From: a bacterium | Lineage (GTDB): Bacteria; Patescibacteriota; Microgenomatia; UBA1406; GWC2-37-13 | Assembly (NCBI GenBank): GCA_021789995.1 | Contig: JAJYIQ010000001.1 | Span: 124,001 to 188,000, forward strand | Direction of reading: 5' to 3' | Length of the DNA stretch: 64,000 nucleotides | Shown: piece by piece, positions 8,080-60,597 of the stretch | Layout: each line of letters opens with the position of its first letter | Position numbering within the stretch: position 1 is the first letter of the stretch | Translations under genes and position numbers: made by a program | Notes under the pieces: model-generated | The model's database searches: none | The model's input: only the letters and a program-made list of their open reading frames with translations | What the model was told of the DNA's origin: nothing

Positions 8080-9414
8080 TTACCTTTTTTTGAGCTCATT
8101 TTCCAATTGTTCACGCACGATTTTGGCATCCGCCTGTCCTTTCATTTCGCGCATTACCTGTCCGACGAGAAACATAACAGCGTTGGTTTTGCCCTTCTTG
8201 TAATCTTCTGCCACTTTTGGGTTTGTTTTAATTAATTGATTAATTAAAATATAAAGCGCTTTTTCATCCGTTTTCTTCGGTTGCAATAATTCCATCGCTT
8301 TGGCCGCGAATTCTTCAACCGGCATAGTCGTGGCAATTTTCTTATTAATTATTAAATTGGCAATCGATTGGTTTGGATTTGGGATTTGTTTTGAACTTGG
8401 AACTTTGCACTTAGATATCACCATCTCAAAGAAATCGGCAGTATTTATATCTCTTGTTAAAACGAGCGCATCCTGTTCTTTAATTTTCCACTCAGCCATA
8501 TAGCGTTTCATTTTCTGCGCCGGTAATTCCGGTACTTTGATTGAATCAGGATATTCCCGGGAAAATGTCATCGGCGGAATATCGGGCTCGGGGAAGTAAC
8601 GATAATCATGCGCTTCTTCTTTACTGCGCTGCGAATAGGTGATTTGCTTTTTTTCATCAAAACCCCGCGTTTCCTGTGCCGGAGTTTCTTTGCGCTCGAG
8701 TATTTCTTTTTGCCTTTCTATTTCATACTCAATCGCTTGTTTCACAAACCGGAACGAGTTAATGTTTTTCACTTCAACCTTATAAGCAGGCAATTCAAAT
8801 TGCTGCCTTTTCTCTTCTCCATTCTCAATTGCGCGAAGGGATATATTCGGCTCCATCCTCATTGACCCTTTTTCCATATCGGCGTCGGATACGCCAAGAT
8901 AGCGGATGATCGTATGCAATTCTTCCAAGAAACGCTTGACATCTTCGGCATTGTCGAAATCCGGTTCGGTGACGATTTCGACAAGAGGCACGCCGGAACG
9001 GTTAAAATCGACGAGCGTATCCACGCCCGAATGAATCAGTTTACCGGTATCCTCTTCAAGATGGACGCGGTGAATGCGGAATTTTTTTTGGTTGATTTCC
9101 ACGTATCCTTGTGAACATAAAGGCTCGTCATACTGCGATATTTGGTAACCCTTCGGCAGATCAGGATAAAAATAATGCTTCCGGTCGAATTTGGAATTGC
9201 GGTTTAACCGGCAATTCAATGCTTTACCGATCAGCTGAGCCCATTCAACCGCCTTTTTATTGGGGACCGGCAAAGCGCCCGGCAGTCCAAGACAAACAGG
9301 ACAGGTATTGCTGTTTTGCTTTTTGCCGAAATAATCGGCCGAACACTGGCAAAACATTTTTGACTTCGACTTTAGTTCCGCATGAATTTCGAGTCCGATA
9401 ACCGGTTTAAACAT
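8080..9414 (-). CDS. gatB: Asp/Glu-tRNA amidotransferase subunit B
   Basis: Binds mischarged Asp-tRNA(Asn) or Glu-tRNA(Gln) and activates the side chain for amidation with GatA and GatC. The opening PVIGLEIHAELKSKSKMFC, zinc cysteines (CQC and CPVC), GSMRMEPNIS and the C-terminal YqeY-like helical domain identify it. The 444 residues are slightly short. Residues about 334-348 hold an odd low-complexity insert (SKCKVPSSKQIPNPNQ) coded by a short-period DNA repeat like those in other genes here. The subunits appear in the order gatC-gatA-gatB. Confidence 0.97.
   Translation of the reverse strand: MFKPVIGLEIHAELKSKSKMFCQCSADYFGKKQNSNTCPVCLGLPGALPVPNKKAVEWAQLIGKALNCRLNRNSKFDRKHYFYPDLPKGYQISQYDEPLCSQGYVEINQKKFRIHRVHLEEDTGKLIHSGVDTLVDFNRSGVPLVEIVTEPDFDNAEDVKRFLEELHTIIRYLGVSDADMEKGSMRMEPNISLRAIENGEEKRQQFELPAYKVEVKNINSFRFVKQAIEYEIERQKEILERKETPAQETRGFDEKKQITYSQRSKEEAHDYRYFPEPDIPPMTFSREYPDSIKVPELPAQKMKRYMAEWKIKEQDALVLTRDINTADFFEMVISKCKVPSSKQIPNPNQSIANLIINKKIATTMPVEEFAAKAMELLQPKKTDEKALYILINQLIKTNPKVAEDYKKGKTNAVMFLVGQVMREMKGQADAKIVREQLENELKKR
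8373..8414. repeat. short-period repeat inside gatB
   Basis: Tandem 7-base units of the GGATTTG and GAACTTG type, coding KCKVPSSKQIPNPNQ in frame in the GatB tail region. It belongs to the same class as the repeats in asnB, polX, ileS and two GT2 genes. Confidence 0.7.
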
Positions 9415-9448
9415 ATTTCAATGCATTAAAACATTAAAATGACGTCGT

Positions 9449-10813
9449 TTAATCTTTATAATTATCAATTCCCCGCTTTATTACACCGAAAAAGTCGGTT
9501 TCCTTTTCAAACTGATAAGCTAAATTTAAAATTTTTTCTTCTTCAAAATAATTTCCCATTATTTGCATGCCGACGGGCAGATTATTATTATCTAATCCGA
9601 CGGGCAAATTGATGGCTGGCGTTCCGGCAACGGCCGCCGCTTCATTCAGCTGGTCCATTACTTCGCCAAAAAAAGGATATTTTTCAAATTCACCAAGATT
9701 CAAAGCGGTAATCGGAGCGGTCGGCGCAACGATAAAGTCAACTTCGGAAAATGCTTTTTTCATGTCGTTAACGATAAGGGTTCTCGCTTTTTGCGCCTTT
9801 TTATAATAAGCATCATAGTAACCGTATGAAAGCGTATATGCGCCAAGCATGATTCTTCTTTTCGCTTCAACGCCAAACTCATTGCGCTCATTGCCATACC
9901 TTATACCGTCATACCGGGACAGATTTGACGATACTTCCGCTCTTTGTAAAATCGTATAAATAGAAATGTCGTATTTCGGATGGATGAGGGTAATTTTTTT
10001 TATTTTATGACCTAATTTTTTCAATATTTCGATTGATTTTTCAATCTTATTTATTGTTTGTTCATCGACACCATCGAAATAATCGTCCGAAATTCCGATC
10101 GTATATTTATTCTTATTTTTCAACAATTGATTATAATCCGCAGCTTTGATCGACGAACTGGTTGCGTCAAACTGGTCTTTTCCGGCAATAACTCCCAATA
10201 AATATGCCGCATCGGTCACAGTGGTGGTTAGCGGACCGGGACAATCAAAAGACGATCCCATGGCAATCACACCATAACGGGAAACCCGGCCGAATGTCGG
10301 TTTTAAGCCAACCACTCCGCTCCAGGCGGCCGGCTGCCTAATCGATCCCGCCGTTTCCGATCCAATGGCGGCTGGTGTCAAATAGGCGGAGACGGCGGCG
10401 GCCGACCCGCCCGATGATCCACCCGGTGAGCGGTTTGTATCCCACGGGTTCTTTGTCGGTCCATAATCGGATGTTTCTGTAGACGAACCGTGCGCCCAGG
10501 CATCCATGTTTGTTTTACCGATGACGGAGAAACCGTTATTGATCAATCTTTCCGTTACGGTCGATTCATAAGGCGGAATAAAATTGTCCAGGACCTTAGA
10601 TGAAGCCGTGGTTTTCAATCCTTTGGTGCAGAAATTATCCTTGACGGCGAGCGGCAGATGCGCCGAATTTTCGTTAACCGTCAGGTAAGCATTCAGCTGC
10701 GGATTGTATTTTTTTATCCGCTTCAAAAAATATTCGTTAATTTCCTTTTCCGAAATCTTTTTATCGGCTACCAATTGTTTCAATTCCAACAACGATTTTC
10801 CGAGTAAGTCCAT
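9449..10813 (-). CDS. gatA: Asp/Glu-tRNA amidotransferase subunit A
   Basis: Amidase-signature glutaminase that supplies ammonia to GatB. The catalytic Lys is in LPLAVKDNFC (near residue 58), and the Ser-cisSer-Lys centre is completed by GGSSGGSAAAV and GSETAGSIRQPA. The 454 residues are near family size. It lies 2 bp after gatC. With gatC and gatB it forms the whole GatCAB enzyme, which implies Asn- and/or Gln-tRNA are made indirectly. Confidence 0.97.
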   Translation of the reverse strand: MDLLGKSLLELKQLVADKKISEKEINEYFLKRIKKYNPQLNAYLTVNENSAHLPLAVKDNFCTKGLKTTASSKVLDNFIPPYESTVTERLINNGFSVIGKTNMDAWAHGSSTETSDYGPTKNPWDTNRSPGGSSGGSAAAVSAYLTPAAIGSETAGSIRQPAAWSGVVGLKPTFGRVSRYGVIAMGSSFDCPGPLTTTVTDAAYLLGVIAGKDQFDATSSSIKAADYNQLLKNKNKYTIGISDDYFDGVDEQTINKIEKSIEILKKLGHKIKKITLIHPKYDISIYTILQRAEVSSNLSRYDGIRYGNERNEFGVEAKRRIMLGAYTLSYGYYDAYYKKAQKARTLIVNDMKKAFSEVDFIVAPTAPITALNLGEFEKYPFFGEVMDQLNEAAAVAGTPAINLPVGLDNNNLPVGMQIMGNYFEEEKILNLAYQFEKETDFFGVIKRGIDNYKD

Positions 10814-10815
10814 AG

Positions 10816-11115
10816 TTACATAATTCTTTTAACAACGAAATAGTCGTTTTTTTTGTTTTTTGCGTTTTTCATTGCCTCATTCTGGCTTAAGCCGCGTTTA
10901 TTTTCTACGCCGTCTTTAAAAAAGACATCGGTCAGATTGGTCGTTTGCGAAGTCGGTTCAACCTTCCTTGTGTCCAGTTCGTTCAGATTTTCGACATATT
11001 CGACCGTTTCTTCCAACTGCTTCCGGTATTTTTCAATCTCATCGTTGGTGAGAGTAAGATTGGATAATTTGGCTAAATGGAGGATTTCTTCTTTATTCAG
11101 TTTGCTCTTTTTCAT
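10816..11115 (-). CDS. gatC: Asp/Glu-tRNA amidotransferase subunit C
   Basis: Small helical subunit that wraps GatA and GatB. The 99 residues show the family pattern: EEILHLAKLSNLTLTNDEIE, then LEETVEYVENLNELDT and EPTSQTTNLTDVFFKDG. The C-terminus is Lys/Asn-rich. Its start lies inside the 3' end of asnB (23-bp overlap), so translation is probably coupled. Confidence 0.93.
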   Translation of the reverse strand: MKKSKLNKEEILHLAKLSNLTLTNDEIEKYRKQLEETVEYVENLNELDTRKVEPTSQTTNLTDVFFKDGVENKRGLSQNEAMKNAKNKKNDYFVVKRIM

Positions 11116-13711
11116 GCATTAATTGTACCATAACCAACGGTGTTTGTTCGTTGGATTGGCCCATCGGATTGTCCTTAAAAACCTTTTCGATCAGGCCGCT
11201 TGGCAATGAGGTTGAATTACTTAAAACATTTTGCCCGATATCATTGGCATCAATGATAACACTTCCTAAGTAATTCTGAGTTTTGATTCTTGATTTTATC
11301 TCGGTATCAATTTCCTGGCAGACCCTAATAGGATTCTTCGGTCCCAGTTTGGCCGATACATTTGATGGATAAAGCGAATACTCCGTCGGACCATCAATCG
11401 ACCTGACAGTCTCTCCGGCAACAACATAAAACAATCCTTTTCGGCCGACTAATTTCCCGAAAATAGACACGGCGGACGCCAATAAAATCCGCAGTAAACC
11501 GACTTCGTCGATGGCGAGCTGCATTGTCCATGGACTACCCAAACCAATACCATAGGGCGTACGGGTAACATATTTCGCTAATGTTTTTGCCCAAATCGAC
11601 GGATTAATATCCCAAATGAAATAAGACCGGCCCTGGCTGATGGCCACCACTTTTTCGGATACGACTAAAAACCATTTTCGATTATCAAATTGCTGCATTA
11701 TTGAATTGTTGGCAATATAGCCATTCAGTAATTTAGCAATCTTTTCCGGGACTTTATCGCCTTTTTTGAATAACTCTGTCCTGATTGGATATCGATCGTA
11801 TTTTTTTTCGTCAATTTTTACGGTCTTTGTGATTTTTTTTATTCGTAATTCATCACTCGTAATTGTCTTGGAATCAAAGAATTCGCGAAGCCATAGTTCG
11901 ACATTCAAAAGGCGCCAGAAAAGCATTGTGTCATCGTTTTTCCCTTCAATAAACTGCTGGAATGCTTTTAATACCTCCGGCTGGTTAAAATATTTCCGCT
12001 TGGAGAAAGATTCGCTCAAAAACAGGTGATAAATCCGGTTTTTCATCCGCATGAACCAATCGTATTCCGGGGTGGTAAAGCCGATCTTGTTTCGCCGTTT
12101 GTTAATGATGTCCGGTAATAAATCAGTTGTCGCTTGCCGGAGGATAAACTTATTCCAGCCGTTTTTGATAATTGCCTCGTCAGCCAATGAGAAAATATAT
12201 TCGGCTAAATTAAAATCAAGGAAAGGGACGCGGCCCTCGATTGAAAAATGCATCGAATTACGGTCTTCATAGCGAAGGAGCGACGGCAGGCTGTTATAAA
12301 AAACGTCCTCCATCAATCTTTTCTTTAGATCATCATTGACGGTGGAAAAAGTCTCTTTTGCATACCGATCGGCGAATGTTTTCGAAAGAAGTAAAGTGAC
12401 GGAAACCGGTTTTCTGAACCTGTTTTTCAGGAAATTCATCCAGATATCGGAAGAGGAAACCAATTCCCGGATTAATAACCAATAACGACGTTCTTTGAAT
12501 AATTGTCTCCAATAGACAAAATAATACGGCAGATAACCGGCCATCATTTCGTCCGATCCCTGCCCGTCGAGAAGTACTTTAACATGTTTTTTTGCCTCTT
12601 CCATCACCTTGTACTGGGCGTACGGACCGGTGCTGATCGTCGGCTCTTCCTGTGTCCGGATAAAATCCTTAATCTCTTCGAAAAACTTTTCCGGAGTGGG
12701 CTTCACCTTAAAACTTTTTAAACTTTTTAACTTTAAAACCTCATTGATATATTTTTCTTCGTCATTGGACAATCCCGGAAAGACGGCTGAAAAAGAGTTC
12801 TGTTTTTTCCCAACCGATTGGCTTTCCTTAATCCGTTCACCAAGCAGCTTATTGATAATAGCGACAATCGTCGACGAATCCAAGCCGCCGGACAAACAGG
12901 TTCCGACCGGAACGTCGGCGATGAGGCGGTAAGTAACGGCTTTTATGAGTTCCCGGCGGAAACGGGCGATATCTTTTTGTTTAACGGGCGAATTGAGATT
13001 CGCTCCTTCAGCGCTTAACAAATCTTTTTCCAGGTTCGTATATTTTCGAATTTCAAATTTCGAGTTTCGAATTTCCAACATTTCCCCCGGCATCAATTTA
13101 CAGATATTTTCGAAAAAAGTTTCCTTCTGATCATCATGAATTCGGTAACGTAGATAACGATAAATAATCCGGTCATTCGGTTTTTTATCAATATAACCAC
13201 TGTTAAAAATTGGGGTTAATTCTGAAGCGAATATGACGCCGAGCGAAGAAACTGGGTTTCGAGCGAGGTCGATTAATGAATAGTAAAGAGGCTTGATACC
13301 GAAATGATCGCGGGCCAGGATTAATTTTTTCTCTTTCCGGGAATAAAGCGCAAGGGCAAACATACCGTTGAAACGCTCGAAACATCGATCTCCCCATTCC
13401 TCATATCCGTGGACAATCACTTCCGTATCGGCGTTGGTGCGGAATTTATGACCGCATTTTTCCAGTTCCTTTCTCAGCTCGCGGTAATTGTAGATTTCAC
13501 CATTATAAACGGTTACGATAGATTGGTCTTCATTATAAATCGGCTGGTCGCCGCCTTTTAAATCAATGATCGCCAGCCGGCGGTTTAATAACGTGATTTT
13601 ATCCTCAATAAAATAGCCCTCGCCGTCTGGGCCGCGGTGGGCCAGCTGCTGAGAAATAGTTTTAATCAGTTTATCATCGCTGAAACCGTAAAATCCGGCA
13701 ATACCGCACAT
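11093..13711 (-). CDS. asnB: asparagine synthetase (glutamine-hydrolysing) fused to a CofE-like domain
   Basis: The first ~620 residues are class-B asparagine synthetase: Cys2 glutaminase (MCGIAGFYG), RRLAIIDLKGGDQP, then the ATP-pyrophosphatase loop CLSGGLDSSTIV and later SIEGRVPFLDFNLAEY. It converts Asp plus Gln to Asn. Residues about 636-865 form a second domain resembling F420-0:gamma-glutamyl ligase (CofE)-like proteins: RTELFKKGD, VVSEKVVAISQGRS, LGSPWTMQLAIDEVG, VSAKLGPKNP. AsnB alone is ~600-650 residues, so 872 is a fusion in one uninterrupted frame. Three short-period repeats lie in it, one at the junction. The 3' end overlaps gatC, the other route to Asn. The CofE-like assignment is by remembered motifs. 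Confidence 0.85.
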   Translation of the reverse strand: MCGIAGFYGFSDDKLIKTISQQLAHRGPDGEGYFIEDKITLLNRRLAIIDLKGGDQPIYNEDQSIVTVYNGEIYNYRELRKELEKCGHKFRTNADTEVIVHGYEEWGDRCFERFNGMFALALYSRKEKKLILARDHFGIKPLYYSLIDLARNPVSSLGVIFASELTPIFNSGYIDKKPNDRIIYRYLRYRIHDDQKETFFENICKLMPGEMLEIRNSKFEIRKYTNLEKDLLSAEGANLNSPVKQKDIARFRRELIKAVTYRLIADVPVGTCLSGGLDSSTIVAIINKLLGERIKESQSVGKKQNSFSAVFPGLSNDEEKYINEVLKLKSLKSFKVKPTPEKFFEEIKDFIRTQEEPTISTGPYAQYKVMEEAKKHVKVLLDGQGSDEMMAGYLPYYFVYWRQLFKERRYWLLIRELVSSSDIWMNFLKNRFRKPVSVTLLLSKTFADRYAKETFSTVNDDLKKRLMEDVFYNSLPSLLRYEDRNSMHFSIEGRVPFLDFNLAEYIFSLADEAIIKNGWNKFILRQATTDLLPDIINKRRNKIGFTTPEYDWFMRMKNRIYHLFLSESFSKRKYFNQPEVLKAFQQFIEGKNDDTMLFWRLLNVELWLREFFDSKTITSDELRIKKITKTVKIDEKKYDRYPIRTELFKKGDKVPEKIAKLLNGYIANNSIMQQFDNRKWFLVVSEKVVAISQGRSYFIWDINPSIWAKTLAKYVTRTPYGIGLGSPWTMQLAIDEVGLLRILLASAVSIFGKLVGRKGLFYVVAGETVRSIDGPTEYSLYPSNVSAKLGPKNPIRVCQEIDTEIKSRIKTQNYLGSVIIDANDIGQNVLSNSTSLPSGLIEKVFKDNPMGQSNEQTPLVMVQLMHEKEQTE
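11841..11865. repeat. short-period repeat at the AsnB/CofE-like junction
   Basis: ATTCGTAATTC-type units with degenerate copies (TCATCACTCGTAATTG) code for SDELRIKK between the two domains. The same TTCGTAAT unit recurs inside ileS at 59918-59949. Confidence 0.55.
12705..12740. repeat. short-period repeat inside asnB
   Basis: Units of the AAACTTTTTA type, period about 10-11, code for LKLKSLKSFKVKP at residues ~324-336. The coded stretch is low-complexity and not part of the AsnB family pattern. Confidence 0.65.
13043..13079. repeat. short-period repeat inside asnB
   Basis: Alternating TTTCGAATTTC and AAATTTCGAG units code for LEIRNSKFEIRK at residues ~211-223, between the glutaminase and synthetase domains. 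Confidence 0.7.
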
Positions 13712-13714
13712 AGT

Positions 13715-13804
13715 AAAAGTTAAAGTTTGTTAAAAATTGATGAAACTTGTTAAAACTAGTTGCAACTAATTTTAACCAATTTTAACTAATTTCAACCAGT
13801 TTTA
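13715..13804. repeat. 10-base-period array between asnB and htpX
   Basis: Units AACTAATTTT, AACCAATTTT, AACTAATTTC and AACCAGTTTT follow at exactly 10-base steps from 13754, with looser copies back to 13715. The array fills the asnB-htpX gap and runs to the htpX stop codon. It has the same style as the in-gene repeats but is non-coding. Confidence 0.8.
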
Positions 13805-13805
13805 A

Positions 13806-14717
13806 CTACATATTACGCAGTATTTTTATTCTTTCTTCAGTCGGCGGATGCGTACTGAAGAGGGAAGTAAACCAGTTAGCCAGGCTCTTTTTATGGAGCG
13901 GATTAACGATAAACAAATGAGCGGTCGATGAAGTAGCGGTATGCAGTACGTGTGGATCCTGGCTGATTTTTTCCAAAGCGCGCGCCAACCCTTCGGGATA
14001 ACGTGTCAGGAGCGCGCCGCTCGCATCGGCCAGATATTCCCGCCGCCGCGAGATGGCCAATTGAATAAGAGTCGCCACAATCGGCGCCACAATCAGCGCG
14101 ACGATAAACAAGATAAAAAAAAGCGGGCTGCGGTCTTCGCCTTCATCCCGGTTCCGGCCCCAGCCGCCCCACCAGAAGCTGCGCATAATCCAGTCGGCGA
14201 CAAGCGCAATTGTACCGACCAGGACGGCAACGACAGTCGAAAGCAACATGTCGTAATTTTTGATATGCGACAATTCATGAGCGATTACCCCTTCCAGTTC
14301 CGTCCGGTCCAATCGATCCAGGAGGCCGGTCGTGGCCACGACAATCGCGTGTTTAGCGTCTCGACCGGTGGCAAATGCATTCGGGGCCGGGTCGTCGATG
14401 ACATATAGTTTAGGCATCGGCAGCCCGTCGGCCATTGCCAGATTTTCCGCCACGGTGTAAAAATCAAAATATTCCTTTTTGCCGGCCGGTTCGGCCCCGG
14501 TCGTCATCAAAACGATTTTATCGGAATAATAATAGCTGCCGACAGCCGACACCAGAGAAAACAGGATTCCAATCGTAAAATACGGCACCGGCGACCCAAA
14601 ATATTTGCCGACAATAAAGAAAAAACCCGATAACAATGCAATAAATATTGCCATGATCAGGAAAGTACGAATTTTATTGCCGGAAATCTGATCGTATAAA
14701 GACATATCATTAATCAA
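13806..14717 (-). CDS. htpX: M48-family membrane zinc protease HtpX
   Basis: Inner-membrane quality-control metalloprotease. It has two N-terminal hydrophobic helices (about residues 20-60), the zinc motif HELSHIKN and the third ligand region [18 protein letters not shown] further membrane pair lies around residues 155-215. It is 303 residues long. Its start overlaps the end of lemA by 8 bp, and lemA overlaps polX, so the three are one unit. The lemA-htpX pairing is common in bacteria. Confidence 0.95.
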
Positions 14718-15264: not shown

Positions 15265-17051
15265 TTATTGATCACCCACTTTCTGAAATTTTCGTACGCT
15301 AATGTATTCATTATATCACTTTTCCGGCACCAACCGCGGCGGGCGACGGCAATACCGTAAAACATATTATCCATTTCGCTTATTTCGTGGCTGTCGGTAT
15401 CAATTATATATTTTACACCGTATTCCAAACCGGCGCGCACCAGTGTATCGGGCAAGTCAAGCCGTGACGGCCAGGCATTGATTTCGATGGCGATATTCCT
15501 GCTGACGCATTCCTTGAATATTACCGGCCAGTCCAGCTCATATCCTTCCCGTTTATTGAGCAGCCGTCCGGTCGGATGACCAAGAATTTTTACTTTAGGA
15601 CGAGATAATGCTCTCATAACACGCGCCGTTTGCTCTTTCCGGCTCATGTTAAACGCGCTATGAATCGAAACGATAATGTAATCAAGATAGTCGACCGCCG
15701 CCTCCGGTACGGCCAACTCGCCATTTGGCTGGATATCGACTTCCAGTCCGTTAAAAACGTGAATTCCCTTATTTTCCAGTTTCTCCGTTGCCGCCTGTTT
15801 TCGCCTTAAAATCTCCGCTATTTCCTCCTTCGTCAAATCGCTCACCTTCGGATTGTGTTCGGAAAAACCAATGTACTCATAATCTAATGACTTGGCCTTT
15901 CCCATCATTTCCGAAAACGAATTTGCTCCCAGATCATGCGACGATTTCAGATCAAATGATGAATGTGTATGCAGATCACCCTTGATTTCCGATTGCTCAA
16001 CCAATTGCGGCAATTTATTTTGCCGAGCCAGTTCGATCTCATTCGTCCCTTCCCTGATCTCCGGCGGGATGTATTGCAAACCTAAAAAGTTGTAAAAGTC
16101 TTTTTCATTTGAAAATTGGAAATTATTTTGAACTTTGTCATTTGAACTTTGAACTTTCTTTATCCCGTATTCCGACAGTGAATAACCTTTTTTTAAAGCA
16201 TAAGTACGCAACTCGATATTGTGCGTCTTGCTACCGGTAAAATACTGGAGCATCGAACCGTAGTCTTCCTTATTCTGAATCCGCAAATCCACCCGAACAC
16301 CTGGCCGGACGATAACAGAGGCTTTTTTTCCGCCGGCATTATCCACTTTGGTGACTTTCGGATACTTGACGAAATGGTCGATTATTGTCTTGCTGTCCTT
16401 ATTGTCGGCCTGCACCAATATGTCGATATCGCCAATCGTGGCCAGCATCCGCCGCAGCGATCCAAGCATATCGGCGCGCCTGACTTCCGGCAGTTGTTTC
16501 AGATAAGCAATATAGTCGGCGGCCAAACCGAATGCCACCGGCAGGATCATCCGCTCAACTTGGGAAGACTGCTTTTGGTAACGGTTTATCGCGTCCAGTA
16601 TTTCCGCCTGCGATTTTTCGCCAAATGTTTCGATCGTCGCAATTCTCCCCTTCTCTGCCGCTTGTTCGACGTCGTTTAATATATTGGTGCTTGTTTTCAG
16701 GTGAAGTGCATTAATCAGTTTGAAAGCCGTTTTCGGTCCAATCGTCGGCACTTTCGTCAGCTCAAAAACCGGCGCCGGGATCTTCCCCATCACCTCGTCA
16801 AAATGGCGGACATGCCCGGTACGGAATAGCTCGTCCAAATAACCGGTAATCGACTTACCCAAAGTCGGTATTTCTCCAAGTTGACCATCTTGCCAGATAT
16901 CGCGGATTTCACGGTTAAGATGTTCGATCGTATCGGCCGCTTTCTGATAGGCGATAATTTTAAACTGATTTTCATTTTGGAGCATATAGGCGCCAGCGAC
17001 ATTGCGCAGCAATCTAGCGACCGACCGGTTGGAATATAAATTGTCAGACAT
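15261..17051 (-). CDS. polX: PolX-type DNA polymerase/3'-5' exonuclease
   Basis: Gap-filling repair polymerase. The order is an N-terminal HhH-rich 8-kDa-like region (1-~130, with [19 protein letters not shown]), the family-X palm with the metal motif GDIDILV and VDLRIQ, then a C-terminal PHP domain (from ~340: [29 protein letters not shown]). The 596 residues are normal. Residues ~298-316 ([19 protein letters not shown]) come from a short-period DNA repeat between palm and PHP. It is the first gene of the polX-lemA-htpX unit. Confidence 0.95.
16106..16158. repeat. short-period repeat inside polX
   Basis: Units of the TTTGAACTTTGAACTTT and ATTTGAAAATTGGAAATT type code for [18 protein letters not shown] in the linker between polymerase and PHP domains. 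Confidence 0.7.
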
Positions 17052-29764: not shown

Positions 29765-30772
29765 ATGAAAAAAGTACCGGTCAGTCTGGTTACCGGCGGC
29801 GCCGGCTTCATCGGTTCTCACGTTGCCAAACATCTGACAAAAGCGAAACATAAAGTTATCGTTCTCGACGACTTAAGCGGCGGCGACAAGGAAAATATTC
29901 CTACCGCGGCAATATTCGTTGGCGGATCAATTACCGATAATAAATTATTAGCGAAAATATTTAACCGCTACCGTTTCGATTACGTTTTTCATCTGGCCGC
30001 TTATGCCGCCGAAGGCTTAAGTCATTTTATCCGCCGGTTTAATTACATGAATAATGTCGTCGGTTCGGAAAATTTAATAAATTTGTCGGTAAAACATAAG
30101 GTAAAACGGTTTGTTTTTACCTCAAGCATCGCCGTCTATGGCGCTAACCAGACGCCTTTTACCGAAGAAACCGTTCCCCATCCCGAAGATCCGTATGGTA
30201 TCGCCAAATATGCGGTCGAGCTTGACCTGCAAGCCGCCCATCGTTTATTTGGATTAAATTACACAATATTCCGGCCGCACAATGTTTATGGCGAGCGTCA
30301 GAACCTTAACGATCCCTTCCGCAATGTCATCGGCATTTTCATGAGGCAAATCAAGCGGGGTGAACCGATGACGATCTTCGGCGATGGCCGCCAAACCCGC
30401 GCTTTTTCCTATATCGGCGATGTCGCTCCCTATATCTCCGGTTGCATGAACATTAATAAAACCGCCAATCAAATTTATAATATCGGGGCCGATACTCCTT
30501 ACCGCATCCTTGATCTGTCATATATGGTCGCGGCAACAATGGGGGTCAAACCGGATATTATTCATTTGCCGTCAAGGAAAGAAGTGATAGACGCTTATTC
30601 CGATCATCGCAAAGTCCGCCGGGATTTTGGCATCAAAAATACGGTTCCGTTAAATGAAGGGCTGAAAAGAATGGCTACCTGGGCAAAAACGGTTAAGTTG
30701 AAAAAAAAAGCAATAAAATTTCAGCTGGAGTTGTCCAAAAACCTGCCGGTCAGTTGGAAAAAATATTTTTGA
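29765..30772 (+). CDS. NAD-dependent epimerase/dehydratase (UDP-sugar 4-epimerase type)
   Basis: Extended SDR of 335 residues: VTGGAGFIGSHVA, VLDDLSGG, FHLAAYAAEG, the catalytic Ser/Thr region FTSSIAVYG, PYGIAKYAVE (YxxxK) and RPHNVYGERQN. It probably makes an activated sugar for the surrounding glycan cluster. Its 3' end overlaps the convergent GT2 gene by 23 bp. Confidence 0.92.
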   Translation: MKKVPVSLVTGGAGFIGSHVAKHLTKAKHKVIVLDDLSGGDKENIPTAAIFVGGSITDNKLLAKIFNRYRFDYVFHLAAYAAEGLSHFIRRFNYMNNVVGSENLINLSVKHKVKRFVFTSSIAVYGANQTPFTEETVPHPEDPYGIAKYAVELDLQAAHRLFGLNYTIFRPHNVYGERQNLNDPFRNVIGIFMRQIKRGEPMTIFGDGRQTRAFSYIGDVAPYISGCMNINKTANQIYNIGADTPYRILDLSYMVAATMGVKPDIIHLPSRKEVIDAYSDHRKVRRDFGIKNTVPLNEGLKRMATWAKTVKLKKKAIKFQLELSKNLPVSWKKYF

Positions 30773-31538
30773 CGGCGAGCGTAATATAAGTTAGAAACTC
30801 CATGTAGGCAAATCCCAGATCGAGCGGCATCCGCCACCATCCGTCCTTATAACCCTTGCTTTTTATAAACCGCGCCCAAAACATGTGCGGCGGATATAAA
30901 AATATTTTTTTCAGCGAGCTTTTTTCGCCGGCGGCCATTTTTTGCCGGGCGTCGCGGATGGCATAGCCGGTAAATTTTTTATACATCTGCCATAGTGATC
31001 GGTAGGAGTAATGATCAAGATGGCCTTTCAGCTTCCCGGTCTTCTTGCTTTTCAGCTCGAATTTTTCATGGACCAGCCGTGGTGAGATTTGGCCGGTGCC
31101 TCTGCGGAATAAACGCAGCATCGAATAGTTTTCCCCGCCGTATTTCACCCGCCGGCCTAAAAAATGATTGTGGTACGGTATGTAATAACCGGCTATTTTA
31201 TCATTCTGGATCCGCCGTCTGGCGGAGATAGAATCTCTTATTTCCATCTTCAGGGGAGCAGAAACGATTTCATCGCTATCCAAAATCAATATCCATTTTC
31301 CCCTCGCTTTGCCGACGGCATATCTTTTCTGCTTTCCCAAATCCTTTTCATGATGTTTGAATACTTTATAAACTTTACGATCTTGAAGAACTTGATGAAC
31401 TATCCCGATCGTTTTGTCCGTCGAATAATCGTCAACGACGATTATTTCATCCGCCAACCCCCGAACGGATTCCAACGACCGGCCAATCGTTGCCGCGGCA
31501 TTTTTGGTGATCATGACGACGGATAAGGACAATTTCAT
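30750..31538 (-). CDS. family-2 glycosyltransferase
   Basis: A 262-residue GT-A enzyme: VVMITKNAAATIGRSLESV, VVDDYSTDKT, LDSDEIVSAPL and HNHFLGRRVKYGG. It is similar in layout to the GT2 at 26059. Residues ~46-62 (HQVLQDRKVYKVFKHH) come from a short-period DNA repeat at the same structural position as in that gene. It starts 6 bases after the minus-strand TATAAT of a bidirectional promoter. Confidence 0.9.
   Translation of the reverse strand: MKLSLSVVMITKNAAATIGRSLESVRGLADEIIVVDDYSTDKTIGIVHQVLQDRKVYKVFKHHEKDLGKQKRYAVGKARGKWILILDSDEIVSAPLKMEIRDSISARRRIQNDKIAGYYIPYHNHFLGRRVKYGGENYSMLRLFRRGTGQISPRLVHEKFELKSKKTGKLKGHLDHYSYRSLWQMYKKFTGYAIRDARQKMAAGEKSSLKKIFLYPPHMFWARFIKSKGYKDGWWRMPLDLGFAYMEFLTYITLAVKNIFSN
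31352..31402. repeat. short-period repeat inside a GT2 gene
   Basis: Units of the CTTTATAAACTTTACGA and CTTGAAGAACTTGATGAA type code for HQVLQDRKVYKVFKH between conserved motifs. Confidence 0.6.
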
Positions 31539-52677: not shown

Positions 52678-52703
52678 CCCCCCGAGCCAATAAGCTCGGG
52701 GGG
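52678..52703 (+). terminator. strong GC hairpin between repeat-protein genes
   Basis: CCCCCCGAGC (52678-52687) pairs with GCTCGGGGGG (52694-52703) around a CAATAA loop. No T run follows, so it could be a stability or partial-termination element between the second and third Asn-rich genes. Confidence 0.6.
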
Positions 52704-52728
52704 GTCCCATATTTAACGGAAAAATAAC

Positions 52729-54207
52729 ATGGATTATAAAAAAATATTGATACAATTGATTCTCGTAATCTTTCTCATCACACCGGTGAATATTTTCGCC
52801 GCTGATGCAACATTAAGCGCCACCCTAAATCCTACACCCATACCATCTCCCGTCATCCCGATAGCTCAAATTTCCCCAATGCCAACCATAACCCCAACTC
52901 CTACACCCTCGCCTGATCTAACTGTCAGTATCAAGCAAGATACCGACCTTACTGACAATAAAACCATTCAAATCTATACCAACGGCTTGGCCACTGCCGA
53001 AGCTTCCATCACCCAGAACGTCAATCAAAACACCGTCGGCAATGATTTGACGGCCAATGTCGTCAACACCGTTGCTCCGAATGACAAACCGATTGATTTA
53101 AGCCAACCCGTTAACCCGTGCCTTTCCACTCCCTTTGCCGGTCAGACAAATAATATCACGGCCAGCAATGCCGCCCAATTAAATAACAACATCAACGTTA
53201 CCGTCGTTGCTTCGGGCAGCGCCACCGCCAAAGCCGCTATCGCTGCTATCGCCAATACCAACCTGAACGGCAACTGCGGTTCGTTCAATATTGTCAATCT
53301 TTTTGACAACCAAAAAGGTAACGTTACCCTTCCCAATGAATTAAATTACATCAGCCCGGACAAACCGGTTGCCGGAGTAAACAATATGTATGTCAGCAAT
53401 AACAATAATATTATCATGAATAATAATACTATTACTGTTGCCACCAGTTCGGCCGGCATCGCCGACAATATCACTCACATTTTAAATATCGTTAATACCA
53501 ATATCACCGGTAATAATTGGCTCTACCTGCGGATCAATAATTTCGGCCACTGGAATGGCAGCCTGCTCAATTGGCGGGGCGATTATCTGGCTGACCCGCT
53601 GGGAATTACTGCCTGGTGGATCGGTGGCAGTCGTAATTACGCTGGACAAGTAGCTGTCCAAAACAACAATTCGGGTAAAATCATCAACAATATCTCTTTG
53701 TCGGCGACATCAGGGGGTGTCGGCGATGCCACCGTAATTGCCAATATTTTCAGCCTGGTAAATACTAATATTACCGGTAATCACTGGTATTTTGCCATGG
53801 TCAATAATTACGCCGACTTCACCGGTGATGTCGTTTTATATCATCCGCCGGATCCAAGCCACACACCTTCCCCTGCCGCTAATAATATTACCAATGACGA
53901 TCCTCCACAATCATCAACTCCATCGGAGTTGAGTGCGGTTACCGACCAGCTCAGCCGGCCAACCCCCTCGCCCACCTCGCTTCCGCCGGAACCATCGCCT
54001 CTTATCGCCGATTATAAAGCGGTAAAAGGCAGTATTCTGGCCGCCGATAACGTATATCACGTCAATCTCGCGGACCAGAATTCTTCCTTTGATTACTGTA
54101 AAAAATATTCTTTCGCCTGCGGTTCAATCGGCATTGGCGCTATTTTATCGTTAATAATTTTATCATCCGGAGAAATCGGTTTTTTTAAAAAGAAATATGA
54201 GAATTAA
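52729..54207 (+). CDS. Asn-rich repeat surface protein with C-terminal membrane helix
   Basis: Signal peptide (~1-24), a Pro/Thr-rich stretch (~35-65: PTPIPSPVIPIAQ, PTPTPSPD), then about four ~75-residue repeats of a type distinct from the previous two genes (NNIIMNNNTITVATSSAG, HILNIVNTNITGNNW, VNNYADFTGDVVLY). A second Pro/Ser linker (~375-430) and a membrane helix (IGIGAILSLIILS) with a KKKYEN end complete 492 residues. It is probably membrane-anchored rather than sortase-linked. Confidence 0.82.
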   Translation: MDYKKILIQLILVIFLITPVNIFAADATLSATLNPTPIPSPVIPIAQISPMPTITPTPTPSPDLTVSIKQDTDLTDNKTIQIYTNGLATAEASITQNVNQNTVGNDLTANVVNTVAPNDKPIDLSQPVNPCLSTPFAGQTNNITASNAAQLNNNINVTVVASGSATAKAAIAAIANTNLNGNCGSFNIVNLFDNQKGNVTLPNELNYISPDKPVAGVNNMYVSNNNNIIMNNNTITVATSSAGIADNITHILNIVNTNITGNNWLYLRINNFGHWNGSLLNWRGDYLADPLGITAWWIGGSRNYAGQVAVQNNNSGKIINNISLSATSGGVGDATVIANIFSLVNTNITGNHWYFAMVNNYADFTGDVVLYHPPDPSHTPSPAANNITNDDPPQSSTPSELSAVTDQLSRPTPSPTSLPPEPSPLIADYKAVKGSILAADNVYHVNLADQNSSFDYCKKYSFACGSIGIGAILSLIILSSGEIGFFKKKYEN

Positions 54208-54739
54208 ACCATTCATCAATTTTCGGTTATCGGTTATCGGAATATTGTTTGCCGGTTTTCTGTTATATAGTTTTAAACCGATAAGCCAACAGCTGATAAA
54301 CCGAAGGCTGAAAATAGAAAGTGGAAAACCGATAACCGAAGTATACGCGGAAGTCAATTCCTCCGTGACCACCAACGTCAGCAGCCAAGGCGGCGGCAGT
54401 ACAAGCGTCAGTGTCCAGAATAATGTCACCAGTTCAAACAGCAGCAGTACCAGTGTTTCCAAACATATCGAAATCAATGTCAACGGTCAAAAAAAAGTAA
54501 TTGATTCTAATCAGCCGGGCAATACCAGTGTCCAGGTTCAAAGCAGCGGCCCGAACGCGACACCGACAATCGTCATCACCGAAACCCCGGCCACGCCGTC
54601 CGCCACCGGTTCGCCGACCGTCTCGCCGATTATCACCATTACGCCACCAAGTAGCCGGCAAATCAACAATCTTATTCAGCAGTTAGTGAATAATGTCCGG
54701 CGACAGATAGAAGCTCTTCTTCGATCCCTGCGGTTTTAG
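54197..54739 (+). CDS. small secreted Ser/Thr/Asn-rich protein
   Basis: A signal/anchor helix (RLSVIGILFAGFLLYSF) precedes a Ser/Asn/Val beta-rich part (SSVTTNVSSQGGGSTSVSVQ), a Pro/Thr linker and an amphipathic C-terminal helix (NNLIQQLVNNVRRQIEALLR). It is 180 residues long. It overlaps the preceding repeat-protein gene by 11 bp, so it belongs to that unit. Its stop codon directly abuts the 3' end of the antisense tRNA-Val. Confidence 0.7.
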   Translation: MRIKPFINFRLSVIGILFAGFLLYSFKPISQQLINRRLKIESGKPITEVYAEVNSSVTTNVSSQGGGSTSVSVQNNVTSSNSSSTSVSKHIEINVNGQKKVIDSNQPGNTSVQVQSSGPNATPTIVITETPATPSATGSPTVSPIITITPPSSRQINNLIQQLVNNVRRQIEALLRSLRF

Positions 54740-54811
54740 TGGTCGCTAAAGGATTTGAACCTTTGACCCCTTCAATGTGAATGAAGTGCTCTACCGCTGA
54801 GCTAAGCGACC
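54740..54811 (-). tRNA. tRNA-Val (CAC)
   Basis: Minus strand: acceptor GGTCGCT/AGCGACC, anticodon stem CTTCA/TGAAG with loop TTCACAT (anticodon CAC), T arm AAAGG-TTCAAAT-CCTTT, discriminator A. CCA is not encoded. It is squeezed between two plus-strand genes. Confidence 0.96.
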
Positions 54812-54842
54812 ATAGTTTACTTTTAATTATATCAAAATCCTG

Positions 54843-54848
54843 TATAAT
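54843..54848 (+). promoter_or_regulatory. leaderless-type -10 box
   Basis: TATAAT, 7 bases, then ATG at 54856 of lepB. The box overlaps an earlier in-frame ATG (54847), which therefore should not be the start. Confidence 0.6.
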
Positions 54849-54855
54849 GAAATTT

Positions 54856-55953: not shown

Positions 55954-55960
55954 GTATTAA

Positions 55961-55966
55961 ATTATA
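55961..55966 (-). promoter_or_regulatory. leaderless-type -10 box before a GTG start
   Basis: Minus-strand TATAAT, 7 bases, then GTG at 55953. Confidence 0.6.
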
Positions 55967-56207
55967 CAACCGCCACGTACGCTTCACCTTTTTTCTGGAA
56001 GAATTTGACTTTTCCTTTTTTCAGGGCAAGAATCGTAAAATCGCGGGAAAGCATGGTGCCCAGGCCGGCATTGACCTTTGTCCCCTTCTGGCGAATGATG
56101 ACATTGCCCGGATTGACAAACTGACCGCCGAATACTTTTACACCCAGTCTTTTCGAGCGAGAATCACGGTTGCCGCGAACTGTTTTCTGTGCCTTGGTAT
56201 GTGCCAT
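55962..56207 (-). CDS. rpmA: ribosomal protein bL27
   Basis: 81 residues: AHTKAQKTVRGNRDSRSKRLGVKVFGGQ at the start and GNVIIRQKGTKVNAGLG, the defining bL27 segments near the peptidyl-transferase centre. There is no cleavable N-terminal extension. It follows rplU by 31 bp, the usual pair. AT-rich sequence with TAACT repeats fills the gap. Confidence 0.96.
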   Translation of the reverse strand: MAHTKAQKTVRGNRDSRSKRLGVKVFGGQFVNPGNVIIRQKGTKVNAGLGTMLSRDFTILALKKGKVKFFQKKGEAYVAVV

Positions 56208-56238
56208 ATTTTTTAGTTATAACTGTCTTTAACTCGCT

Positions 56239-56553
56239 TCATCCGATTTTAACTATTTTTAACTGCGTAAGGTGCGGACGGAATCCGGTTACTTTGCGGT
56301 AGCGTACTTTCGCTTTGAACTTCGCCACCCGGATTTTATCGCCTTTTACCTGGCTGATGACTTCTGCCTTGATTCCTTTAGCCAAAGTAGGCATCCCTAA
56401 TTTCAGCGATTTTCCTTCATTATCAAACATCGCCAATACCGGCAGTTCGACTGTCTCTTTTTCCTTATTGGGAAGCTTATCGACGGTAATAATATCCTGT
56501 TCTTTGACAAGATACTGCTTTCCACCGGTTTTGACAACGGCAAAATTTACCAT
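56239..56553 (-). CDS. rplU: ribosomal protein bL21
   Basis: 104 residues, the normal size: FAVVKTGGKQYLVKEQDIITVDKL at the start, then KAEVISQVKGDKIRVAKFKAKVRYRKVTGFR, the bL21 signature. It is first in the rplU-rpmA unit, with TATAAT 6 bases before the ATG. Confidence 0.96.
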   Translation of the reverse strand: MVNFAVVKTGGKQYLVKEQDIITVDKLPNKEKETVELPVLAMFDNEGKSLKLGMPTLAKGIKAEVISQVKGDKIRVAKFKAKVRYRKVTGFRPHLTQLKIVKIG

Positions 56554-56559
56554 TTTTTA

Positions 56560-56565
56560 ATTATA
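56560..56565 (-). promoter_or_regulatory. leaderless-type -10 box before rplU
   Basis: Minus-strand TATAAT, 6 bases, then ATG at 56553. The site also lies just downstream of the rodA stop. Confidence 0.6.
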
Positions 56566-56575
56566 CCGGAATTTA

Positions 56576-57610
56576 TCAGGGAATCAAGGCAAAAGCGATC
56601 ATTAGCGCCACGATTGAGCTGCCGCCATAGGAAATAAAGGGCAAGGCGATGCCGGCGACCGGCATTATCCCCAGATTCATCCCGATATTAACAAAAATCT
56701 GGAAAACCAGGTAAGCAAGTACGCCGATCGTATAAAGGAATTTTTTTTTGTCCTCTTCGTCCCGGCGGAAATAAAATCTAAGCGCCCGTTTGACCAAAAG
56801 ATAAACGATGACCGCATAAATAACCAAAATCGCCAGACCACCGAGGAAACCGAACTGCTCAACGAGTGATGCAAAAGCAAAATCCGTATGGTTTTCCGGC
56901 AAAAAGAACAGTTTCGCCTGCGTCCCCAGCCCCAGTCCCCGGCCGAAGAATTTACCCGAGCCGACGGTAATCATTGCCTGGATCATGTTGTATGCTGTCC
57001 CCTGCGTATTGACGTGCGGACTTAAAAAACTCAAAATCCGGGCCCGCTGGTACCCTTTCATAAAAAACCATCCGAGGGGAATAGTCATCAGCAAAAACCC
57101 GATAAAATACAAAATGTACCGTTTTGGATAATCGGAAAAAAGGACCATCACCAAAAAAATAAAGAAAAAAACCATCGCGTTACCCAGATCCGGTTGTTTA
57201 AAGATGATGAATGTCGGCAGTATAAAATAAGCGATACTTTTTAAAAAAACGTCAAAACTGTTGTGCCGGATATATCTTTTTGTCAAATGCTCAGCCAAAA
57301 ACAGTATGAAAAAAGCTTTGAAAAACTCCGATGCCTGGAAGTTGAACAAGCCGAAATTCAGCCAGCGTTTCGACCCCTTGGCTTCCACACCGATAATATA
57401 AGTGATTGCCAAAACGGTTATGAAAAACCAGTATAAAAACTTATTGTTCAGCCGGAATACCGGCAGGCCGATTTTCTTGACGGCAGCAAACGCGGCAAAA
57501 GCGATTACGACAAAAATTAACTGATGGAAAAACAAACCGGTATCGATGCCAAAAAGCGTAAACACCCCAAACAGGGAAAGGAGAACCGAGGGGATTAATA
57601 GGTTGGTCAT
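56576..57610 (-). CDS. rodA: rod-shape SEDS peptidoglycan polymerase RodA
   Basis: Membrane glycosyltransferase of the SEDS family with about ten helices, 344 residues. It shows KGSKRWLNFGLFNFQASEFFK, the KQPDLGNAM motif, HTDFAFASLVEQFGFLGG and GIALPFISYGGSSIV at the end. Length and sequence fit RodA better than FtsW. It overlaps ileS by 4 bp, so the start codon is fixed by coupling. Confidence 0.93.
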   Translation of the reverse strand: MTNLLIPSVLLSLFGVFTLFGIDTGLFFHQLIFVVIAFAAFAAVKKIGLPVFRLNNKFLYWFFITVLAITYIIGVEAKGSKRWLNFGLFNFQASEFFKAFFILFLAEHLTKRYIRHNSFDVFLKSIAYFILPTFIIFKQPDLGNAMVFFFIFLVMVLFSDYPKRYILYFIGFLLMTIPLGWFFMKGYQRARILSFLSPHVNTQGTAYNMIQAMITVGSGKFFGRGLGLGTQAKLFFLPENHTDFAFASLVEQFGFLGGLAILVIYAVIVYLLVKRALRFYFRRDEEDKKKFLYTIGVLAYLVFQIFVNIGMNLGIMPVAGIALPFISYGGSSIVALMIAFALIP

Positions 57611-60597
57611 ACTTGGACTGTCAGTTCGCTACCTGCTTCAACTTTCTCCGCCATGATTTTCTTTTTGATGTAGTCAAGATCTTCGAGAAAACGGTCGGGG
57701 ACAGTCACTTTTACCTTATCCGTCGGCTTGAGTCCCAGTAGTTTTCTTTCCGCCTGGATTTTGCGGATGAGATCCCGCAGCTCCCCTTCCTTGGCGAGTT
57801 CTTCCTCGTTGACGGCCACTTCTTTTTTCGGGTACTTGACTTTACCGTTGATTTCCAAATTCTTCACGTTTAATTCTTTCAGCACCACTTCCCAGACGTC
57901 ACTGCCGACATTCGTAAATTCGCCGTCCGCCGTTACTGCCAATTTTGCCAACGGCATTCTCACTTTCAGATTTTCGCCTTTCCTTTTGGCATGTCCCGCT
58001 TCCGCCACTTTTCTCGCCAACATCATTTCTTCTTCCAGTTTTGAATTTTGAATTTTGAGTTTTGCACTTACTGCTGGCCAATCAGCCAGATTAACCGATT
58101 CTTCCCCGGTTAAATTAACGTAAATTTCTTCGCTTATAAAAGGCATGAAAGGAGACAAGACAACTGATAGGTTGACTAAAATAAAATGCAAAGTGCTGTA
58201 AAAATCGTTCTTATCTTTTTCGTCTTCGGAATTGGTCCAAACGCGGTCGCGGCTCCGGCGTATGTACCATGTCGATAAATCACTGACAAATTTTTCCACT
58301 TCGCCGGCCGCATCCTGGGCGTCATAAATTTTCAGGCTTTCAGCAATGAATTCGACCAGACCGACGAACCGGCTCATTATCCATTTATCCAAAACGGTCA
58401 TGTCATTGCGAGAAACGTAGTGATGAAGTAATCTGTCACCGCGTTTTACGGAGTCGGATGGAACCCATTTATCCAAATTTGCGTATTCCACAAAAAACTT
58501 ATACACATTCCACAACATCAGGTAAAACTGCCGCCGGACTTCATCGGCTTTTTTGTAGCCGAAAAGCATATTTTCCGCTGGATTCTGCCGGCAAAACATC
58601 CAGCGCATGACATCGACGCCGATTTTGTCGGCACCTTCGGCGAATTCGATGGCATTGCCCCAGCTTTTATGCATCGGCCGGCCGTCTTCGCCCAAGAGGG
58701 TGCCGAAACCGAGAACGGTCTTGTAGGGGTTTTTGTTTTCGAGAACGGTTGATTCGGCGATCAGTGCGTAAAACCAGTTCTTGAATTGCCCGGGAAAACT
58801 TTCGGTGATGAAATCGGCCGGAAACCAATGCCGCCATTCCGTCTTGTTTTTCCAATACAACGGTTCGCCCCGGTTATTTTCCTTTATCGTAGAATAAGAA
58901 ACGATACCGGCGTCCAGCCACGGATTGCCGACATCACCGATTCGGGATACTATCTCGCCGCATTTTTGGCACCTGATCTTCACTTCGTCGATAAACGGCT
59001 TATGCGGCGTATGGCCGGCAAATTCTTCCCAGCCGGCGACCGCCCGTTTTTTCAGTTCTGCCTTTGAACCGATGACTTCATATGTGCCGCATTGTTTGCA
59101 TTCGAAGATCGGCAACGCCAACCCCCAGTAACGGTTTGGTTTACTTATCAGCCAATCGTGCATGTTTTTGAGCCAGTCGAGTTCGCGATCCAGCCCGAAT
59201 TTCGGCCGCCAATTGATTTCTTTTGCCACCGCCATCATTCGTTTTCTTAGTGTAAGATTTTTTTGCTTGCCGGCCGAAGCCTTGCGCGAAGGATGGTCCA
59301 TTGCGATATACCATTCATCCGCCACTTTCCAAACGAGTTCCGTCTTACACCGCCAGCAGGCCGGATAACGGTGCTTATAATGATGAATTTTGAAAGCATA
59401 ACCTCTCTTTTCCATGTAATCAAGAATAAGCCGCGGATTTTTTTTGGCGTTTTTCTCCGACAGGAAATCCATTCCCGACAGGTAATCGGCGTTATCGGCG
59501 ATAACGGGAATCATCGGCAGCCCCAGTTTTTTACCGAGTTTGAAATCCTCGGCGCCGGCGGAAACGGCCGTATGGACCATACCGGTGCCTTCGGTTAGCG
59601 TAATCGGCAGGATATTTTCGTCGGTTGCAACGACGGTATGGAAGGTTTTTGGGTTTTTTTCGGCGACTTCCTTCACTCGTGGCAAATGGTCAAATGCCGC
59701 CTCGTACTTCAAACCGGCCAGTTTCTTGCCCTTAACGGTTTTAACGATTTTTTTATAATCTTTGCCAAAAACCGCCGGAATTAATTCCCGGGCTAACCAA
59801 TAATTTTTGCCATCCGTCCCTTCCACCAAGCTGTAATCGTATTTTTCATCGATGGCGACGGCAATATTGGCGGGAATCGTCCACGGCGTCGTCGTCCATA
59901 CCAGTAAAAAGGTATTTGGTAATTCGTAATCCGTAATTCGTAATTTAAAATAAATCGATTCATGAACCACTTCCTTGTAATCTTCCGTCAGCATTTCGTG
60001 CTGTGAGATTGCCGTTTCGCAACGCGGACACCAGGGGACGGATTCATGGCCTTTGTAAATCCAGCCGTTATCGTAGCAAACCTTGAGAAAATCCCAGATC
60101 ATATAATTGTTGTCGTCGCTCATTGTATAGTAGGAATTATCCCAATCCATGAAGTAACCGAGGCGTTTTGATTGCTCGGTCTGGATGCCGGAAAATTTCA
60201 TAACACGGTTTTTACAAAGCTGGACAAATTTAGCAATTGATGCTTTGCGGTCGCCCGGTACAAGATTTTCGATTTCTTTTTTGTTTTTCAAACCAAGCTC
60301 TTTTTCCACTTCAACCTCAACCCACAATCCCTGGCAGTCAAAACCGTTTTGGAAACGCTGTTTCTGACCCAACAAATTATGAAACCGCTGCCATAAATCC
60401 TTGTATGTCCGGCCCCAGGCATGGTGGACTCCCATCGGATTGTTGGCGGTAATCGGGCCGTCGAGGAAGGAAAAATAATTTTTTGATGTGTCGTTTTTAC
60501 GAAGATATTTTTGGACGATGCCTTTTTCGTACCAGTGCTTGAGCCACTTTTTCTCCATCTCGGGAAAATTGGTATTATTGTCGACCGGTTTGAACAT
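57607..60597 (-). CDS. ileS: isoleucyl-tRNA synthetase with altered signature motifs
   Basis: Class I synthetase of ~996 residues. The HIGH region reads GVHHAWGRTYKD and the KMSKS region GRPMHKSWGNAIEF. The editing domain (VWTTTPWTIPANIAVAID, TGMVHTAVSAGAEDFKLG), zinc-type Cys pairs (CPRC, CWRC, CKQC, CQKC) and DWDNSYYTMSDDNNYM identify IleRS. These belong to a distinct bacterial subgroup as I recall it. I use the ATG at 60597, 8 bases after TATAAT; a TTG at 60606 is in frame. Two short-period repeats lie in it, in the editing domain (~217-226) and near the C-terminus (~843-853). Confidence 0.93.
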   Translation of the reverse strand: MFKPVDNNTNFPEMEKKWLKHWYEKGIVQKYLRKNDTSKNYFSFLDGPITANNPMGVHHAWGRTYKDLWQRFHNLLGQKQRFQNGFDCQGLWVEVEVEKELGLKNKKEIENLVPGDRKASIAKFVQLCKNRVMKFSGIQTEQSKRLGYFMDWDNSYYTMSDDNNYMIWDFLKVCYDNGWIYKGHESVPWCPRCETAISQHEMLTEDYKEVVHESIYFKLRITDYELPNTFLLVWTTTPWTIPANIAVAIDEKYDYSLVEGTDGKNYWLARELIPAVFGKDYKKIVKTVKGKKLAGLKYEAAFDHLPRVKEVAEKNPKTFHTVVATDENILPITLTEGTGMVHTAVSAGAEDFKLGKKLGLPMIPVIADNADYLSGMDFLSEKNAKKNPRLILDYMEKRGYAFKIHHYKHRYPACWRCKTELVWKVADEWYIAMDHPSRKASAGKQKNLTLRKRMMAVAKEINWRPKFGLDRELDWLKNMHDWLISKPNRYWGLALPIFECKQCGTYEVIGSKAELKKRAVAGWEEFAGHTPHKPFIDEVKIRCQKCGEIVSRIGDVGNPWLDAGIVSYSTIKENNRGEPLYWKNKTEWRHWFPADFITESFPGQFKNWFYALIAESTVLENKNPYKTVLGFGTLLGEDGRPMHKSWGNAIEFAEGADKIGVDVMRWMFCRQNPAENMLFGYKKADEVRRQFYLMLWNVYKFFVEYANLDKWVPSDSVKRGDRLLHHYVSRNDMTVLDKWIMSRFVGLVEFIAESLKIYDAQDAAGEVEKFVSDLSTWYIRRSRDRVWTNSEDEKDKNDFYSTLHFILVNLSVVLSPFMPFISEEIYVNLTGEESVNLADWPAVSAKLKIQNSKLEEEMMLARKVAEAGHAKRKGENLKVRMPLAKLAVTADGEFTNVGSDVWEVVLKELNVKNLEINGKVKYPKKEVAVNEEELAKEGELRDLIRKIQAERKLLGLKPTDKVKVTVPDRFLEDLDYIKKKIMAEKVEAGSELTVQV
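58036..58071. repeat. short-period repeat inside ileS
   Basis: TTTTGAATTTTGAATTTTGAG-like units code for KLKIQNSKLEE near the C-terminus. Confidence 0.65.
59918..59949. repeat. short-period repeat inside ileS
   Basis: Units TAATTCGTAATCCGTAATTCG (period ~9-10) code for KLRITDYELPNT just before the conserved VWTTTPWT of the editing domain. Confidence 0.65.

Follow-up and report, generated by a model that had tools for sequence, protein, structure and literature searches.

Rickettsia palindromic elements (RPEs; Ogata et al. 2000, reviewed in PMC2229807) are the model case of selfish DNA lying in frame within conserved genes, and are given in that review as 105-146 bp long. Heptameric repeats, such as GGGAATC in Xanthomonas and GGGGA(C/T)T in Nostoc (PMC4692102) or TAACTGA in Beggiatoaceae (PMC4679880), are over-represented in many bacteria and mostly intergenic (PMC4692102, PMC4679880), and REPs are sometimes found inside genes (PMC3733652). 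A literature search, with most subscription papers outside its scope, found no paper on in-frame heptamer elements in enzymes of the CPR.

We interpret the heptamer arrays analyzed here as dispersed repeats of small size which linkers tolerate; they resemble the RPEs but are heptamer-built. As with the RPEs and the protein-coding palindromes of Wolbachia, these are small dispersed palindromic repeats which occur both between genes and in frame in conserved proteins, and which are tolerated at the landing site. They differ from RPEs in (i) the heptamer-array body (PMC2229807 does not describe RPEs as heptamer-built), (ii) the coding copies, which are usually single arms, and (iii) their occurrence in many genera, with different units at one site. 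With heptameric simple sequence repeats they share tandem units of exactly 7 bases, far more frequent than expected by chance, dispersed and genome-specific. The known heptameric repeats, however, are described as direct, and they are mainly intergenic and under-represented or peripheral in coding DNA, whereas many of those described here lie in the interior of enzymes and the intergenic ones often form inverted pairs. The GTAG- or CGTC-tagged REPs and REPINs (PMC3733652) are also short palindromes, at times located in genes, and related species sometimes carry them at one common position, but the arms found here are heptamer-built, bear no GTAG/CGTC tag and are not linked to a RAYT gene.

The window, i.e. 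the whole stretch of 64,000 nucleotides that was analyzed (G000:C3:124001-188000), is part of a four-contig genome of 0.9 Mb (G000), whose size and gene content point to an organism of the CPR/Patescibacteria type; the relatives used for comparison include a genome of the same genus (G001) and an array-rich one (G026). Arrays were called as scored segments of lag-7 autocorrelation, and the numbers reaching thresholds of at least 10 and at least 12 were compared with the expected counts. The window contains six segments scoring at least 10 (0.1 expected) and three scoring at least 12 (0 expected); one strong array is located in asnB and two in ileS (Table 1). An earlier note on this DNA had listed in-frame repeats with units of about 7-11 bases in gatB, asnB (three), polX, ileS (two) and two GT2 genes, plus a non-coding 10-base array. 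The arrays of asnB, ileS, polX and gatB stand and are above chance, but their true period is 7, and the quoted words of 9, 11 and 13 bases are pieces of heptamer arrays. The scan for autocorrelation at periods 7-11 proposed in the note, when run on 395 kb of G000, gave a sharp excess at lag 7 (17 arrays, 0.0 expected) and 0-9 segments at other lags, the nine at lag 14 being a harmonic of 7. Neither GT2 gene contains a lag-7 array with a score above 7.5, and the sole TRF match, in the GT2 gene at 30750-31538, is a weak one of period 9 (31371-31401); the claim that both genes carry a repeat at one shared structural position is therefore unsupported. The 10-base array is real but is not a member of the heptamer set.

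Taken singly, the window copies in gatB (8390-8412, score 8.5), polX (lag-7 core) and at the two remaining asnB sites are weak, which leaves one strong repeat of the three reported for asnB. All of these weak copies are backed by strong arrays at the same sites in G001 or other relatives: in G001 the asnB site at aa 806-813 carries a perfect AAATTTC array (4.9 copies), and the third asnB site, without a score in the window, reaches 12 in G001 and as much as 24 in other genera.

Table 1. Heptamer arrays and neighboring repeats of the window (positions in the window; scores from lag-7 autocorrelation).
Feature	Position	Strand	Sense unit	Score	Residues	Remarks
gatB weak array(s)	8372-8412	-			335-348 KCKVPSSKQIPNPN	variable linker before C-terminal domain
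asnB degenerate array	11274-11295	-		7.5	806-813 KSRIKTQN	
asnB degenerate third site	11837-11869	-			about 615-625	domain linker
asnB array	13044-13078	-	AAATTCG	15.5	212-223 LEIRNSKFEIRK	predicted beta-hairpin
Intergenic period-10 array	13719-13806	.				upstream of asnB; real, not a heptamer element
polX array	16127-16157	-	AAAGTTC	10	about 299-309	lag-7 core 16141-16157
Inverted pair of heptamer arms	54220-54340 (arms 54220-54240, 54310-54340)	.				encloses a gene start; hairpin z -3.8
ileS array	58039-58064	-	AAAATTC	16.5	848-856 AKLKIQNSK	
ileS array	59911-59945	-	AATTACG	18	221-232 KLRITDYELPNT	beta-hairpin turn

The inverted pair of heptamer arms, which is of TCGGTTA type and surrounds the start of ORF 54197-54739, was absent from the earlier list. 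The period-10 array lies directly upstream of asnB and forms a weak hairpin. In the window, asnB (11093-13711) carries a fused F420_ligase-like domain at its C-terminus (Pfam PF01996); some relatives have this C-terminal portion as an open frame of its own.

Orthologues of ileS, asnB, gatB and polX were gathered from the family, order and class (30-55 per gene). Approximately 30-43 sequences per gene yielded 78 arrays at lag 7, compared with 12 at lag 8, 7 at lag 9 and between 0 and 2 at most of the remaining lags (5-13); with 55 ileS genes included, the survey comprised 102 arrays in 36 genomes. Nearly all of them are found at linkers or beta-hairpins, at 2-5 sites in each gene: near aa 221-232, 438-450, 713-735 and 846-857 in ileS, 148-153, 211-224, 324-335, 615-624 and 799-814 in asnB, 103-108, 194-208 and 332-342 in gatB, and 214-221 and 298-312 in polX, with single further matches at the C-termini of GatB and PolX. 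The 47 arrays of ileS form 4 clusters (mean of 18.3 and minimum of 11 in 2000 random placements) and the 33 of asnB form 5 (mean 15.6, minimum 9), i.e. random placement produces three to four times as many clusters as seen in these two genes. This recurrence is not a count of events, because it includes arrays inherited from a common ancestor.

The sites of the four genes are loops, hairpin turns and domain borders, in agreement with the suggestion of the earlier note that the repeats are tolerated in linkers. In AlphaFold2 models built from the orthologue alignments, with a mean pLDDT of 79.9 and a modest 75.8, the ileS array at 59911-59945 is placed at the turn of a hairpin whose strands are 209-223 and 231-237 (residue numbers in the model are lower by one), the other at a linker and helix start between domains, and the remaining ileS sites in loops. 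The strong asnB array is placed on a beta-hairpin (strands 210-215 and 218-223). Around aa 214-236 and 705-740, the ileS genes of G342 (L332), G344 (L342), G348 (L344) and G350/G351 (L326, L327) carry other small in-frame palindromes (for example GTAGAGACGAGGCATGCCTCGTCTCTAC and CACCCTCAGGGTGACC...GGTCACCCTAAGGGTG), some of which resemble GTAG-tagged REPs. Small repeats in general thus seem to land in these two ileS regions.

At most sites the arrays are insertions, as had been claimed, the medians being mostly 2-14 residues longer when an array is present. In ileS 214-236 the median is 32 residues with an array and 21 without, in polX 292-318 it is 36 and 22, and ileS 842-862 has 21 residues in all six array-bearing genes and 19 without an array. 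Both window arrays of ileS add two residues, the one at 59911-59945 relative to the usual 21. The strong asnB array, in contrast, leaves the length unchanged and aligns without gaps to array-free orthologues, as ordinary sequence would according to the note, and 7 of 10 array-bearing genes have the array-free median of 26 residues at asnB 205-230. This segment is nevertheless not ordinary sequence, because it is a strong period-7 array at the DNA level which has different units in different genera. That most asnB-hairpin arrays are length-neutral argues against copying, in that plain insertion does not explain it.

All coding copies keep the reading frame, as the earlier note stated, but this is partly forced: since 7 is not a multiple of 3, a heptamer run without stops yields one and the same heptapeptide whichever frame is used, and only the total length must fit. 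Stops occur in 16 of 68 sense units and in 41 of 68 antisense units. The encoded beta-hairpin and the conserved length in asnB could be taken to mean that heptapeptides such as LEIRNSK and LRITNYE are favored as hairpin formers, the DNA repeat being a by-product. This is very unlikely, given that the repetition exists at the DNA level (the three frames in which a given unit is translated use different codons), that the same array families occur in intergenic DNA, where those of G026 share units with the coding ones, and that other sites are linkers and helix starts.

The array at ileS 58039-58064 is identical in the independent genome G001, with flanks that are 96-97% identical, and the same sites are occupied in dozens of genomes. 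Short repeats are generally known to mislead assemblers, but with these observations, and with no result here pointing to an artefact, we consider an assembly or binning error to be scarcely credible.

A single site carries different seven-base units in different genera. The units at the asnB hairpin are AAATTCG (window, G001, G344), AGGATTC (G026), AAAAATT (G034), AAAGTTC (G016) and AAGAATT (G338). The polX unit differs even within one genus, AAAAATC being present in G001 at the place of AAAGTTC. This is one of the cases in which arrays with different units but equal or similar length face each other in G000 and G001 (another is L008:9368-9398), the flanks being about 75-84% identical. Within the group of arrays at ileS 842-862, phase and copy number are constant and the unit differs, which indicates that all units of an array can change in concert at an unchanged position. 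For two non-coding arrays of G000 (L014:9297 and L015:13135), the aligned G001 sequence contains no corresponding array. The heptamer array at L011:111-141 of G000 faces a palindrome, TTGTCCCGTCTTGACGGGACAA, at the same gene spot in L242 of G001. The ileS pairs among the long genes compared are at most 84% identical, too distant for the junctions of single events to be read cleanly.

An alternative to copying is local slippage by steps of 7, by which chance near-repeats would expand and homogenize in place and survive in tolerant linkers, with no copying between loci. Among the long simple repeats of many bacteria, heptamers are the most frequent, and slippage of the polymerase by 7 nt has been proposed (quoted in PMC4692102 and PMC4679880). 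The length-neutral turnover in asnB and the constant phase with changed units at ileS 842-862 are consistent with transient misalignment, and no two of the 17 sampled arrays of G000 share 14 nt. Local slippage is a possible source of the window's own arrays; as an explanation of the whole set we regard it as rather unlikely, in view of the following observations on unit pools, inverted pairs and block copying in relatives.

Units are genome-specific across genes. A 9-mer of array sequence is shared between different genes in 28 of 114 pairs from the same genome (25%), compared with 295 of 3309 pairs from different genomes (9%), a level of within-genome sharing reached in none of 500 label permutations, which ignore shared ancestry within genera. 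In G007, asnB, gatB and ileS all contain a run of AAGTTGG type with an AAACCTC run behind it. The excess of period 7 is present in all four genomes sampled, and in G026 it amounts to 91 arrays in 400 kb, with the families AAGATCT, AATCATG, AAATTTC and AACCCAY. Identical arms of 31-33 nt, with variant units in the same order, occur in G026 at several separate loci, and the mean longest shared stretch is 17.5, versus 15.0 after shuffling of the unit order. As in RPEs, one family comprises both in-frame and intergenic copies: coding arms match intergenic arms over 23-30 nt, the arm at L362:1662 being identical to an intergenic one over 30 nt. The RPE form of a palindromic element of 105-146 bp was not found; coding copies are mostly single arms of about 31 nt, and the intergenic arrays of G026 are mostly inverted pairs forming hairpins of 70-100 nt. 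Such a partner is present within 100 nt of 40 of the 53 non-coding arrays of G026 (1-2 in reversed or complemented controls), so that the elements have terminal inverted repeats, as MITEs do. Alignment of the G026 copies reveals separate elements, each of two arms joined by a variable loop; the termini of two aligned families are TGATT...AATCA or AGATC...GATCT, and several elements fold better than shuffled sequence. One coding stretch of G026, of about 1.7 kb (L351:3219-4907), contains many clustered heptamer arrays of several families.

Intergenic DNA (about 9% of the sequence) is enriched per base, with 5 of 17 arrays in G000 and 46 of 91 in G026, and many others lie in genes. A role as terminators was considered for the G026 intergenic elements and rejected, their distribution over gene orientations (37 co-directional, 8 divergent and 6 convergent) following the background (107, 33 and 16). 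An inverted partner accompanies four of the six non-coding arrays of G000 and none of its catalogued coding arrays. The inverted form is not confined to the family: a search for LRITNYE-type patterns gave 116 loci in cyanobacteria, Bacteroidota, Chloroflexi, Acidobacteria, Clostridia, a Vibrio and some CPR, where 50 of the 296 arrays are paired with an inverted one, versus 5 in the control.

The hairpin form, together with the presence of Y1_Tnp matches in the family (52 of 72 genomes; two matches in G000), might indicate RAYT/REP-type elements mobilized by a Y1 tyrosine transposase. Arrays, however, are not enriched within 1.5 kb of 30 Y1_Tnp loci (6 in 84 kb), G001 has no Y1_Tnp match and yet as many arrays as G000, and no GTAG end was seen in the aligned families, which makes this origin most improbable. 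In terms of Y1_Tnp presence and proximity, no mobilizing gene or transposase was linked to the arrays.

We therefore favor, with a probability of about 0.65, the reading that the window segments derive, as copies or as decayed remnants, from small heptamer-built repeats that are dispersed by copying between loci and survive in linkers. The spreading proposed in the earlier note is thus seen at the level of the family, in the genome-specific unit pools and the block copying of G026, but not in the G000 sample, and its insertions apply to most sites but not to the asnB hairpin. We infer a copying origin for the window's arrays from their relatives, because no two sampled arrays of G000 share 14 nt and the coding ones have no inverted partner; they probably arose like those of the relatives. 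The body of the element would be a run of four to five seven-base units (about 30 nt), and its usual intergenic form in the array-rich relative would be two such runs inverted around a short loop. Arms would be copied between loci of one genome, which would give each genome its own unit pool, and our best guess for the copying step is that heptamers shared between loci prime template switching or ectopic conversion. A copy in a gene would survive only at a loop, hairpin or domain linker able to accommodate added residues, and only if the net change in length is a multiple of 3 and the sense strand is free of stops. Once established, an array may persist while the unit changes in all copies together. 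No target duplication was evident in the aligned copies, with one usable empty site for comparison.

More tentatively, heptamer hairpins may form an independent class of small mobile DNA, whose spread depends on an unrecognized enzyme or replication mechanism and whose frame-blind design lets them colonize essential genes and supply loops and beta-hairpins; we regard this as a doubtful but possible extension. By the copying reading, database peptides such as FEIRNSK or LRITNYE are signatures of a DNA repeat and not of homology. The repeated occurrence of arrays at a few flexible spots of these enzymes represents small repeated DNA rewriting protein loops. If the copying reading is right, it provides a concrete route from non-coding repeat to protein sequence, in essential enzymes, which can be tracked across a whole bacterial family, and it would offer a test of why seven is the favored repeat length in bacteria.
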